A DNA stretch of 64,000 nucleotides from Flavobacteriales bacterium UBA6772 (lineage in GTDB: Bacteria; Bacteroidota; Bacteroidia; Flavobacteriales; Flavobacteriaceae). A program made the position numbers and the translations under genes. Below the pieces are notes generated by a model that saw nothing but the letters and a program-made list of their open reading frames with translations, was not told the DNA's origin and searched no databases. Below are positions 56,934-62,540 of the stretch, piece by piece; the first letter of the stretch is position 1, and every line of letters begins with the position of its first letter. Location of the stretch: assembly GCA_905181765.1 (NCBI GenBank), contig CAJIYW010000002.1:21414-85413 (forward strand), in the 5' to 3' direction.

Positions 56934-58088
56934 ATGAAAAAACTCCCTACTGTTCTTTTAGAACGAAAAACGCACAGAAAACAGTCTAGAATACTTATTA
57001 AATTTAAATATAACGAAGTATTAATTGTTTTAATGCGAAGCCTTAAGAATGCTTTCTGGAGCGCTACCTTAAAATGTTGGTGTATAGAAGACACAGCAGA
57101 AAATCTGAATTTAATAGTTGTACTGCTTAAAAATAAAGCCGTTATCAATTCAGAACACTTGCAGAAGAAAAATCTTTATAAGCGCCAATTAAATGAAATT
57201 CAGAAAACACTTTTAAATAATTTTTTTATCTATTTAAGAGGCAAGAGGTATCGTAAAAGTACAATTGATACATATGTTTTTTTTGTAGCAGACTTTATTG
57301 CTTTTCATACAAAAAAAGATCTAAATTCTTTAGACAGCAGAAGTGTAGAAGAGTATTTAGAGGTTGTTTTTATAAAGCGAAAATATGCCATTAGTACTCA
57401 AAGGCAGTTTATAAGTGCCTTAAAATTATTTATTGTTTTCTACCCAGAAACAATGATAAATGATTTAGAGTTAGCCCGGCCAAAAAGATCTAAAAAATTA
57501 CCAAATGTGTTGGCGCCAGAAGATATTGTTACCATATTACAGGTAACAAAAAACTTAAAACATCGAGCAATTATTGCATTATTATATTCTTCTGGTTTGC
57601 GTGTTGGTGAAGTTACTGCCTTAGAATTATCTCATATAGATATCGGTAGAAATCAGCTAAAAGTTGTTTCTGGAAAAGGCAGAAAAGACAGGTTTGTAGT
57701 TTTAGCACAGACATTTTTACCTCTTTTAAATAACTATTTAATTACTTACAAGCCTCATTTTTATTTTATAGAAGGACCTAATAAAAAAAGGTATTCAGAA
57801 AGTAGTATTCGTAAATTCTTGCACAATAGCGTTGCATTGGCTGGTATAAAAAAACATGTTACACCGCACACTTTAAGACATAGTTATGCAACTCATTTAT
57901 TAGAAAACGGTGTTAGTTTACGCCATATTCAAGAGCTTTTAGGACACTCTAAGCCAGAGACAACAATGATTTACACCCATATAGCAAAAAAAGATTTATT
58001 AGAAATTCAAAGTCCTTTAGATGCGATTTTATTATCTTTAAACAAAAATGCTAATCGAGAACAAAAGTTCCTCTTATCCGGAAATTGA
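56934..58088 (+). CDS. tyrosine-type site-specific recombinase (integron integrase-like, IntI/XerC-D family)
   Basis: SAM-like core-binding domain and catalytic R (SSGLRVGE), K (GKGRKDR), H-x-x-R (HTLRHS), H (LLGHS), Y (TTMIYTH); ends ...IQSPLDAI. About 75 aa N-terminal extension. Confidence 0.93.
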   Translation: MKKLPTVLLERKTHRKQSRILIKFKYNEVLIVLMRSLKNAFWSATLKCWCIEDTAENLNLIVVLLKNKAVINSEHLQKKNLYKRQLNEIQKTLLNNFFIYLRGKRYRKSTIDTYVFFVADFIAFHTKKDLNSLDSRSVEEYLEVVFIKRKYAISTQRQFISALKLFIVFYPETMINDLELARPKRSKKLPNVLAPEDIVTILQVTKNLKHRAIIALLYSSGLRVGEVTALELSHIDIGRNQLKVVSGKGRKDRFVVLAQTFLPLLNNYLITYKPHFYFIEGPNKKRYSESSIRKFLHNSVALAGIKKHVTPHTLRHSYATHLLENGVSLRHIQELLGHSKPETTMIYTHIAKKDLLEIQSPLDAILLSLNKNANREQKFLLSGN

Positions 58089-58139
58089 GACCCGTAAACG
58101 GGAACTTTGTGCTCCATATAACCAGTTGTGGTTAATACC
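58057..58139 (+). repeat. candidate attI-like site at the 3' end of the recombinase gene
   Basis: Inverted repeat GAGAACAAAAGTTCC / GGGAACTTTGTGCTC around CCCGTAAACGGG, then core GTTGTGGTTA (58126..58135) at the first cassette boundary. Confidence 0.5.
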
Positions 58140-58156
58140 GAAAACCCAGAAACCGA

Positions 58157-58951
58157 GTGAATAAAACAGTATTTGAAATTACCAAAATGGATTGTCCTTC
58201 AGAGGAAAATCTCATCCGAATGAAATTGGACGGAATTTCAAGTATTGCGAATTTGGACTTTGACATTACTAATCGAAAATTGACGGTTTTTCACAGCGGA
58301 GAAATTGACCAAATCGAAAAGTCCGTTATCGAACTGAATTTAGGCGGAAAAAAAATCTCGACTGAACAAACCGACCAAACGGAATTTAAAGAAAACGCAA
58401 ACCAAAAAAAGCTACTTTGGTCTGTACTTGCAATAAATTTTACCTTTTTCATAATCGAAATGACAACAGGAATTATCTCAAAATCAATGGGACTTGTTGC
58501 AGATAGTTTAGATATGCTTGCCGACAGTTTTGTTTACGGAATTAGTTTGTTTGCGGTTGGCGGAACTTTGATTAAGAAAAAGCGGATTGCGAAACTTGCT
58601 GGATATTTTCAAATCACACTTGCGATTATCGGATTTGTGGAAGTTTTAAGGAGGTTTTTCGGAGACGAGAAACTTCCGAATTTTTCGACAATGATTATCG
58701 TTTCGATTTTTGCACTTATCGCAAACGGAATTTGTCTTTACATTTTACAAAAGTCAAAAAGTAAAGAAGAAGCTCATATGAAAGCAAGTATGATTTTCAC
58801 TTCTAATGACGTGATTATAAATTTGGGAGTAATAATCGCAGGAATTTTAGTAAATTGGTTAAGTTCAAATAAACCAGATTTGATTATCGGAACAATCGTT
58901 TTTATTTTGGTAATTCAAGGTGCATTTAGAATATTGAAATTAAGTAAATAA
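58157..58951 (+). CDS. cation diffusion facilitator family transporter with N-terminal HMA-like domain (cassette 1)
   Basis: FEITKMDCPSEENLIRMKLDGI...; IIEMTTGIISKSMGLVADSLDMLADSFVYGISL (CDF signature). GTG start. Confidence 0.85.
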   Translation: MNKTVFEITKMDCPSEENLIRMKLDGISSIANLDFDITNRKLTVFHSGEIDQIEKSVIELNLGGKKISTEQTDQTEFKENANQKKLLWSVLAINFTFFIIEMTTGIISKSMGLVADSLDMLADSFVYGISLFAVGGTLIKKKRIAKLAGYFQITLAIIGFVEVLRRFFGDEKLPNFSTMIIVSIFALIANGICLYILQKSKSKEEAHMKASMIFTSNDVIINLGVIIAGILVNWLSSNKPDLIIGTIVFILVIQGAFRILKLSK

Positions 58952-58956
58952 AATAA

Positions 58957-59093
58957 GTACTAACCACAACAACGTGTATAATTCATTCCTAGTTATAGCC
59001 TACTTACGAAAGTCCTCTCGGACTTTCTATCTGTGATTTATTTGCTAACTTTAGTGCTTAAACCACGCAACGAAATCATACACAAAACCGTTG
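58957..59093 (+). repeat. attC-like site 1
   Basis: CAAC-AAC-GTGTATAATTCATT ... GAAAGTCC-TCTC-GGACTTTC ... CGAAATCATACAC-AAAACC-GTTG. Confidence 0.75.
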
Positions 59094-61818: not shown

Positions 61819-61990
61819 AATACGGGTTTTGGTGCTTAACCCAAAGTTTAGAGCTTTTAACCAAGTCCGCCAAATCTTTTGATTTGGCTTTATAAAGAAA
61901 AAGATAAAACAAAATAAAAAGTTTTGGCTAAGTGCTTAATCGGAAATTAATTACTTTTAATTCCCGTACTAACCATAGCCGTAGCAATTG
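61799..61990 (+). repeat. attC-like site 3
   Basis: AGCTAAC-AAT-GGCTATAATTAATACGGG ... GCCAAATC-TTTT-GATTTGGC ... CCCGTACTAACCATAGCC-GTAGCA-ATTG. Confidence 0.72.
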
Positions 61991-62009
61991 TGTTTAATTA
62001 ACGATAAGT

Positions 62010-62483
62010 ATGAACAAAGAAATAAACAATGATAATCCTGGAGTCAAAATACCTCCTCCAATAATCTTTATTGGATTTGGATTATTTGGGGGTTTAATAA
62101 ATTATTTAAAGCCGTTAACAATTACAGGTCCTTCCTGGCTCGTATATTTGGGCGTATTAATTTTAATTGGATCATTCCTTGGGTTTGGCTATATGATCAA
62201 TTTTTATAAAAAGAATGAGACTGAAATAGAGCCAACCAAAACTACCTTTAAAATAATTACATCTGGTCTATATAGACACTCTAGAAACCCTGTATATATA
62301 ATATTATGTGCAGGTCCGGTTGGTTTAGGGTTTATTTTCATGACTTATTGGGCCATTTTTGCATTCATCCCTGCACTAATAGTCATATACTTTACTGCCG
62401 TTAAAAAAGAAGAACAATACCTTGAAAAAAAGTTCGGGCAAGAATATTTAGACTATAAAAAGAAAGTCAGAAGATGGATTTAA
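62010..62483 (+). CDS. isoprenylcysteine carboxylmethyltransferase-family membrane protein (cassette 4)
   Basis: TSGLYRHSRNPVYIILCAGPVGLGF ... EEQYLEKKFGQEYLDYKKKVRRW. Confidence 0.88.
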   Translation: MNKEINNDNPGVKIPPPIIFIGFGLFGGLINYLKPLTITGPSWLVYLGVLILIGSFLGFGYMINFYKKNETEIEPTKTTFKIITSGLYRHSRNPVYIILCAGPVGLGFIFMTYWAIFAFIPALIVIYFTAVKKEEQYLEKKFGQEYLDYKKKVRRWI

Positions 62484-62489
62484 AAAACT

Positions 62490-62540
62490 AATCACAACTA
62501 AGGCTAAACTGCATTAAAACGAAGTTTAGCCGAAACGTTG
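62490..62540 (+). repeat. attC-like site 4 (short form)
   Basis: AATCACAAC-TAA-GGCTAAACT-gcattaaaacga-AGTTTAGCC-GAAAC-GTTGG; perfect 9 bp stem. Confidence 0.72.

Follow-up and report, generated by a model that had tools for sequence, protein, structure and literature searches.

A candidate integron-like cassette system run by a non-IntI tyrosine recombinase in Flavobacteriaceae

Does a tyrosine recombinase gene in a flavobacterium, followed by unrelated genes that each end in an imperfect palindrome, mark a gene-capture system of the integron kind, and if so, does it belong to the classical family? Integrons are the textbook engine of bacterial gene capture and have so far been defined by the integrase IntI. 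The locus lies in a 64-kb stretch (the window) of a metagenome-assembled genome, Flavobacteriales bacterium UBA6772, of 1.93 Mb and 70% completeness; the right end of the window, position 64000, is the end of contig C2. From sequence comparison we estimate, with a probability of about 0.93, that it holds a system that captures cassettes in the manner of an integron, with a tyrosine recombinase other than IntI as its enzyme. The parts are listed below, with cassette lengths measured crossover to crossover and site scores from the covariance model R1.

56934..58088, + strand: tyrosine recombinase ("type A" integrase, 384 aa), codirectional with the cassettes, 3' end adjoining the array
56934..57173, + strand: N-terminal extension of the recombinase, about 80 residues, five strands and two helices, probable HARP-like domain
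58057..58128, + strand: putative attI, overlapping the recombinase stop codon, with the crossover between 58125 and 58126
58126..59090, + strand: cassette 1, 965 bp, with a CDF-family cation efflux gene at 58157-58951
58967..59093, + strand: attC-like site 1, stem GTGTAT/ATACAC, 86.6 bits, E 6e-18
59091..59840, + strand: cassette 2, 750 bp, acetyltransferase-like gene with a broken frame in this assembly; start/end pairing weak
59717..59843, + strand: attC-like site 2, stem GTATAT/ATATAC, 90.3 bits, E 7e-19
59841..61987, + strand: cassette 3, 2147 bp, secreted protein with a C-terminal YPNPA-type motif, broken frame in this assembly
61802..61990, + strand: attC-like site 3, stem GGCTAT/ATAGCC, right core ATTG, 49.2 bits, E 3e-9
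61988..62537, + strand: cassette 4, 550 bp, PEMT/ICMT-type methyltransferase at 62010-62483
62495..62540, + strand: attC-like site 4, short form, stem GGCTAAACT/AGTTTAGCC, 47.0 bits, E 1e-8
62538..64000, + strand: start of a fifth cassette, with regulator-like and DJ-1/PfpI-like open reading frames (ORFs), cut by the contig end

Folded sites at the cassette ends

The R1 model was trained on 33 sites, all from other genomes. Scans for exact stems had returned many chance palindromes on both strands, and they were superseded by this model together with a two-arm profile, with near-zero background; on shuffled DNA the final scanner returned about zero sites. Across the 64-kb window R1 gives exactly four matches, all in one orientation, and no further match anywhere else in it. 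They fall where an earlier sequence-only reading of this DNA had placed four palindromes, each closing a unit behind the recombinase gene. That reading had put the units at 964, 750, 2147 and 550 bp, within 1 bp of the lengths measured here, and its description of the palindromes as YAAC-N3-stem...stem-N5/6-RTTG also holds. Its four cassettes stand as well, but the end that it gave the array at 62540 does not, since another cassette opens at that point and continues past the contig end.

The wider set of sites yields the consensus AC(T/G)N5-YAAC-N3-GNNTAW...WTANNC-N5C-GTTG-N5(A/C)AT, with a typical length of about 125 nt and other forms of about 46 and 190-235 nt. Structure is conserved over sequence, as had been proposed: compensatory changes are found at 13 of the 16 stem pairs, and neither the 500 shuffles nor the slid controls ever reach the covariation score. 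Ten stem pairs served in selecting the sites, with those nearest the core among the selection criteria, and covariation is also present in pairs outside these ten. The tests of location, exchange, circles and strand that are described below are unaffected by how the training sites were selected.

The two strands of a site are not equivalent. Two positions carry conserved A.C mismatches on the top strand and, correspondingly, G.T wobbles on the bottom one. It is the bottom strand that folds more stably in 104 of 112 sites (P=3e-19), with the arms giving 106 of 107, and random DNA has no such bias (145 vs 149). This strand asymmetry is that of attC.

The recombinase, its attI-like site and the exchange of cassettes

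A domain search recovers a Phage_integrase domain in the recombinase (1e-37) as well as a SAM-like domain, and alignment indicates a complete active site (R223, K248, H312, R315, H338 and Y347). Metagenomes contain homologs that are 99% identical; a search of viral contigs with the recombinase gave no match, and in phages its matches are distant at best. The best sequence match in the PDB is the archaeal XerA (5hxy, 6e-42), followed by VchIntIA. The full-length structure model has a low predicted template modelling score (pTM 0.54) and was used solely to rank relatives. The genome of the window also encodes two separate Xer-like proteins (32% identity). Taken by its sequence, the enzyme appears to be a tyrosine recombinase other than IntI, as discussed further below.

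The N-terminal extension is predicted to fold into a domain of five strands and two helices, with a mean confidence (pLDDT) of 87 over 80 residues. HARP (PF07443) is the Pfam family that most members match, though weakly (4/40, best 4.6e-5), and the top Foldseek match is the HARP domain of SMARCAL1 (4o66; probability 0.93, a weak E of 0.05, TM 0.49-0.56). HARP domains are described as comprising five strands and two helices and as junction-specific DNA binders (PMC4666394). The extension is therefore probably a HARP-like junction-binding domain, which would suit an enzyme that works on folded strands.

The putative attI consists of two inverted arms, GAGAACAAAAGTTCC at 58057-58071, within the 3' end of the recombinase gene, and GGAACTTTGTGCTC at 58101-58114, followed by CATATAACCA|GTTG. 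In several strains the end of the recombinase gene and attI are about 98-99.7% identical to the window while the first cassettes differ, and the identity breaks off exactly at ..ATATAACCA|GTTG, i.e. ..CATATAACCA|GTTG. One contig (L139), for example, follows the window at 98.5% identity through 46933-58129 before switching to a different first cassette, and cassette 1 of the window is also found in a further locus (L125), where the attI that precedes it differs slightly. The genome of the window has a second array (L004, G000:C1:304154 onward), which opens with the last 39 recombinase codons and an attI-like site, continues with a different first cassette, and has at least 13 sites in the next 16 kb. 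By these comparisons, an attI-like site adjoins the recombinase at the point where cassettes appear to enter. The C-terminal peptide EQKFLLSGN of the recombinase (window 58057-58088) is conserved, seemingly owing to a second role of the DNA that encodes it, which also forms an arm of the attI-like site.

Cassettes also bear a mark of their own ends. The five variable nucleotides after GTTG are perfectly complementary to the end of the same cassette in 182 of 289 cases (63%) from 184 loci. When starts and ends are shuffled the figure is 1.9%, and between the two arms within a single integrated site it is 3.1%. In cassette 1, the start GTTGTGGTTAATAC is complementary to its own end GTACTAACCACAAC. 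Joined to itself as an excised circle, such a cassette would rebuild a long paired core, or hairpin; in an array, each site is composed of the end of its cassette and the beginning of the following one. This pattern argues that the cassettes are circular units.

Whole cassettes also turn up in new surroundings. Cassettes of 522 and 727 bp have copies of 100% identity at separate, non-neighbouring positions within a single array, a 968-bp cassette is 98% identical between Tenacibaculum and another genus, and a 764-bp cassette is 95% identical between Haloflavibacter and Winogradskyella, in each case with unrelated flanks. Together with the breakpoints between strains, which lie exactly at sites, these cases indicate that whole cassettes are exchanged in nature at site boundaries. 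Two further stretches were noted at the start of the fifth cassette. A 42-nt stretch, GTTGGCAGTAATTCAAAATCGCTGACTAATTACAGACTAAAT (window 62537-62578, L004 2910-2951), precedes different genes in the two arrays of the genome. Window 62570-64000 matches contig C9 (5392-6822) at 99.86% identity, and because this match starts at 62570, its breakpoint lies about 30 nt within the cassette, not at the crossover.

The cargo is diverse, in keeping with the unrelated functions named by the sequence-only reading. In 203 of 208 cassettes, the ORF of greatest length is on the cassette strand. In a set of 100 cassette proteins no Pfam family has more than two members, and the families present range from cation efflux and secreted proteins to restriction, toxin-antitoxin and other phage-defence functions. 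Phage-defence candidates in the cassettes of L052-L070 and L123-L214 are a type II methyl-directed restriction enzyme, PD-T4-1, SspE and HEC-05; a ParE-type toxin is found there too. Each window cassette had been read as holding one gene or gene remnant; the "remnants" in cassettes 2 and 3 may instead be assembly errors. Ordinary genes at window 46936-49022, 52479-53567, 54464-55793 and 55745-56567 are likewise frameshifted, and the same four are intact in the 98.5% identical contig L139, with 697, 367, 444 and 274 codons open, so the window assembly probably carries indel errors.

How might such a system work? In single-stranded DNA, the bottom strand of a cassette-end site would fold into a long hairpin in which the A.C mismatches of the top strand become G.T wobbles. 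The recombinase would bind two boxes set apart by an asymmetric 3/6-nt bulge, cut beside GTTG, and join the site to attI or to another site. In this way single-gene cassettes would be inserted or excised as circles, within which start and end pair again, and the N-terminal HARP-like domain may help to recognise the strand junction of the folded site.

Association across genomes and the competing explanations

The sites keep close company with this recombinase family. When 20 kb on each side of the gene is scanned with R1 in 18-20 Flavobacteriaceae genomes or long contigs, all 265 sites lie downstream (381 kb covered) and none upstream (360 kb covered). Recombinase homologs are present in 115 of 301 Flavobacteriaceae genomes (E<=1e-60), and 272 of the 301 have at least one site. 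In complete genomes the arrays extend over about 65-80 kb with all sites on one strand. In G069, for instance, the recombinase gene ends at 532501 and is followed by sites at 534755-609266, all on the same strand, and in G114 one array runs from 240801 down to 163874 and is accompanied by a second. Site numbers reach 95 in G069, 137 in G114, 81 in G102 and 117 in G014; the incomplete genome of the window has at least 25 (E<=0.001), most of them on other contigs.

The association extends through the phylum. Among 200 Bacteroidota genomes, 19 of them Flavobacteriaceae, 97 have at least one site; 53 carry both sites and the recombinase family (homologs at E<1e-45), 12 the recombinase only, 44 sites only and 91 neither (P=4e-11). 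Sites and IntI do not co-occur in this sample (P=0.87). These P values are inflated by genome kinship, and the IntI contrast is drawn from the identical set of genomes. Outside Flavobacteriaceae the link between sites and recombinase persists (P=4e-7); within the 19 Flavobacteriaceae, the same 16 genomes carry both. In other Bacteroidota (L289-L294) we found a second architecture, in which sites of this type adjoin recombinases of about 280-335 aa that have no N-terminal extension and, in the manner of classical integrons, are transcribed in the direction leading away from the array. The sequence-only reading had asked whether sites cluster next to the recombinase family and whether cassettes vary between strains, and both prove to be the case. 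Its statement that classical integrons are described mainly outside Bacteroidota fares worse: IntI scores above the model cut-off in 59 of the 200 genomes, though in none of the 19 Flavobacteriaceae. This frequency is far above what the literature that we found suggests (L275-L288 are among the loci).

Could the recombinase simply be a divergent IntI and its sites ordinary attC? The IntI model TIGR02249 matches it with an E of 2e-62, VchIntIA is among the best structural matches to its model, and a G|TT core, hairpin sites, bottom-strand bias and an attI are held in common. However, the match comes in two stretches, and its 211 bits lie below the curated cut-off of 265. The IntI-specific insert between catalytic motifs, 53 residues in VchIntIA, is 10 residues here and is missing from every aligned type A and type B homolog. 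In a tree with limited sampling of other recombinases, IntI and the core type A sequences (18 rows) form separate clades, each with 100/100 support; with midpoint rooting and long branches, the Xer rows (XerC, XerD and XerA) form a group of their own (99/98) that leaves the recombinase outside. The sites differ as well. Among 384 of them, GTTRRRY is found in 20, RYYYAAC in 38 and both in 2, so that YAAC/GTTG alone is kept, and the site model is silent near 13 of 14 Bacteroidota IntI loci and on a class 1 integron. With the absence of co-occurrence between sites and IntI, this agrees with the earlier placement of recombinase and sites outside classical IntI/attC and makes a classical integron an unlikely description. 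Only slightly less likely again is that XerCD, a transposase or homologous recombination between repeats moves the cassettes, with the adjacent recombinase incidental. Sites do occur in genomes without a close recombinase homolog, and two window sites are 90% identical over 63 nt, which would allow homologous exchange. This explanation is at odds with the one-sided distribution of sites around the gene and their co-occurrence with it, with breakpoints that lie at the crossover and not in the homologous central part of the sites, and with the arrays beside short divergent recombinases, which repeat the association independently. Finally, the palindromes might be terminators, regulatory RNAs or transposon ends of the kind seen in miniature inverted-repeat transposable elements, set between ordinary genes. 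Every palindrome lies just 3' of a gene and some hold strong internal hairpins; but an Rfam scan of the window gave no match, the better-folding strand is the bottom and not the transcribed one, and no transposase or target duplication is associated. Such elements would also leave unexplained the complementarity of cassette starts to their own ends and the exact exchange of unrelated genes at one side of a site, and we regard this last alternative as scarcely credible.

Several observations weigh against an integron-like system run by the non-IntI recombinase. Window site 3 carries ATTG and not GTTG, window cassettes 2 and 3 pair weakly from start to end, and two window cassette genes are frameshifted, so the window array is either partly degenerate or hit by assembly indels. 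The covariation of the core-proximal stem pairs was partly selected for, these pairs being training criteria, and the HARP assignment draws on three weak, converging matches. Of the 97 site-bearing genomes in the phylum sample, 44 have no recombinase homolog at E<1e-45, so some arrays either have no enzyme that was detected or depend on a more distant relative. The cleavage point, the strand used and the folding of single strands are read from sequence.

Beyond this locus, we lean toward a broader picture, held with distinctly less assurance than the integron-like reading itself: Bacteroidota may possess a second integron lineage, spread across the phylum and with an evolutionary history separate from that of IntI. 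It would have two architectures, one with long codirectional recombinases bearing a HARP-like junction-reading domain and one with short divergent recombinases, and its own folded single-strand sites. It would be a main route by which marine flavobacteria capture genes, and would have been overlooked because the IntI insert and the classical attC boxes are what detection depends on. A parallel system with arrays of up to 75 kb, present in about half of the Bacteroidota sampled and in about 90% of the Flavobacteriaceae sampled, would alter current estimates of where cassette exchange takes place. It would also give access to a large store of unannotated accessory genes, among them genes for phage defence, toxin-antitoxin modules and metal efflux. 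It also makes testable whether the IntI insert is needed for recognising folded single-stranded sites or whether another solution exists.

Relation to known integrons and recombinases

Xer recombinases act on a single dif site in chromosome resolution. XerA, XerC and XerD have the same catalytic domain as the recombinase described here, which differs in being located on cassette arrays. Reviews list integrons for Bacteroidota (PMC8618304), and IntegronFinder 2.0 reported one complete integron in Bacteroidetes proper, that of Salinibacter ruber, beyond those of Chlorobi and Ignavibacteriae (PMC9024848). In the open-access literature, with subscription journals and preprints outside the search, we found no earlier description of flavobacterial or Bacteroidota integrons of the present kind. 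Surveys based on classical parts may largely have missed the flavobacterial system, its different enzyme and sites being a reason. Spirochaetota (Treponema) have integrons with a reversed intI gene (PMC9668308); the reverse orientation of the recombinase gene is shared, whereas their gene encodes IntI and the recombinase here lies outside IntI.

A closer link may be found in the lytic Polaribacter phage P12002L (L297). R1 finds 11 sites at 14494-39718 of its genome, several of them flanking DNA methyltransferase genes. A predicted attC of this phage (HattCI/Infernal) was recombined into attI1 by IntI1, on the bottom strand only (PMC9892861). The phage cluster of attC sites lacking integrases (CALIN) thus resembles the present arrays in its 11 sites of the flavobacterial family, placed between methyltransferase and other genes, and differs in having no recombinase. 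Flavobacterial sites and attC may be partly cross-recognised, with the attC tested with IntI1 linked to the 11 sites by phage and not by coordinates.

The fullest likeness is to the IntI/attC integrons, such as class 1 integrons and the Vibrio superintegron. Shared with these are a tyrosine recombinase beside an attI-like site, a same-strand array of mostly single-gene cassettes closed by folded sites, the G|TT crossover, the bottom-strand bias, arrays of superintegron size, and heterogeneous genes, phage defence included. The flavobacterial recombinase differs in lacking the IntI insert, in its separate clade, in its probable N-terminal HARP-like domain, and in being codirectional with the cassettes. 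Its sites have a G|TTG core without the classical 7-nt boxes and an asymmetric 3/6-nt bulge, and its cassettes show about 12 nt of complementarity to their own ends with one conserved mismatch. Judged by its sequence, then, the system appears to work like an integron and, by the criteria examined, to stand outside the IntI/attC family.

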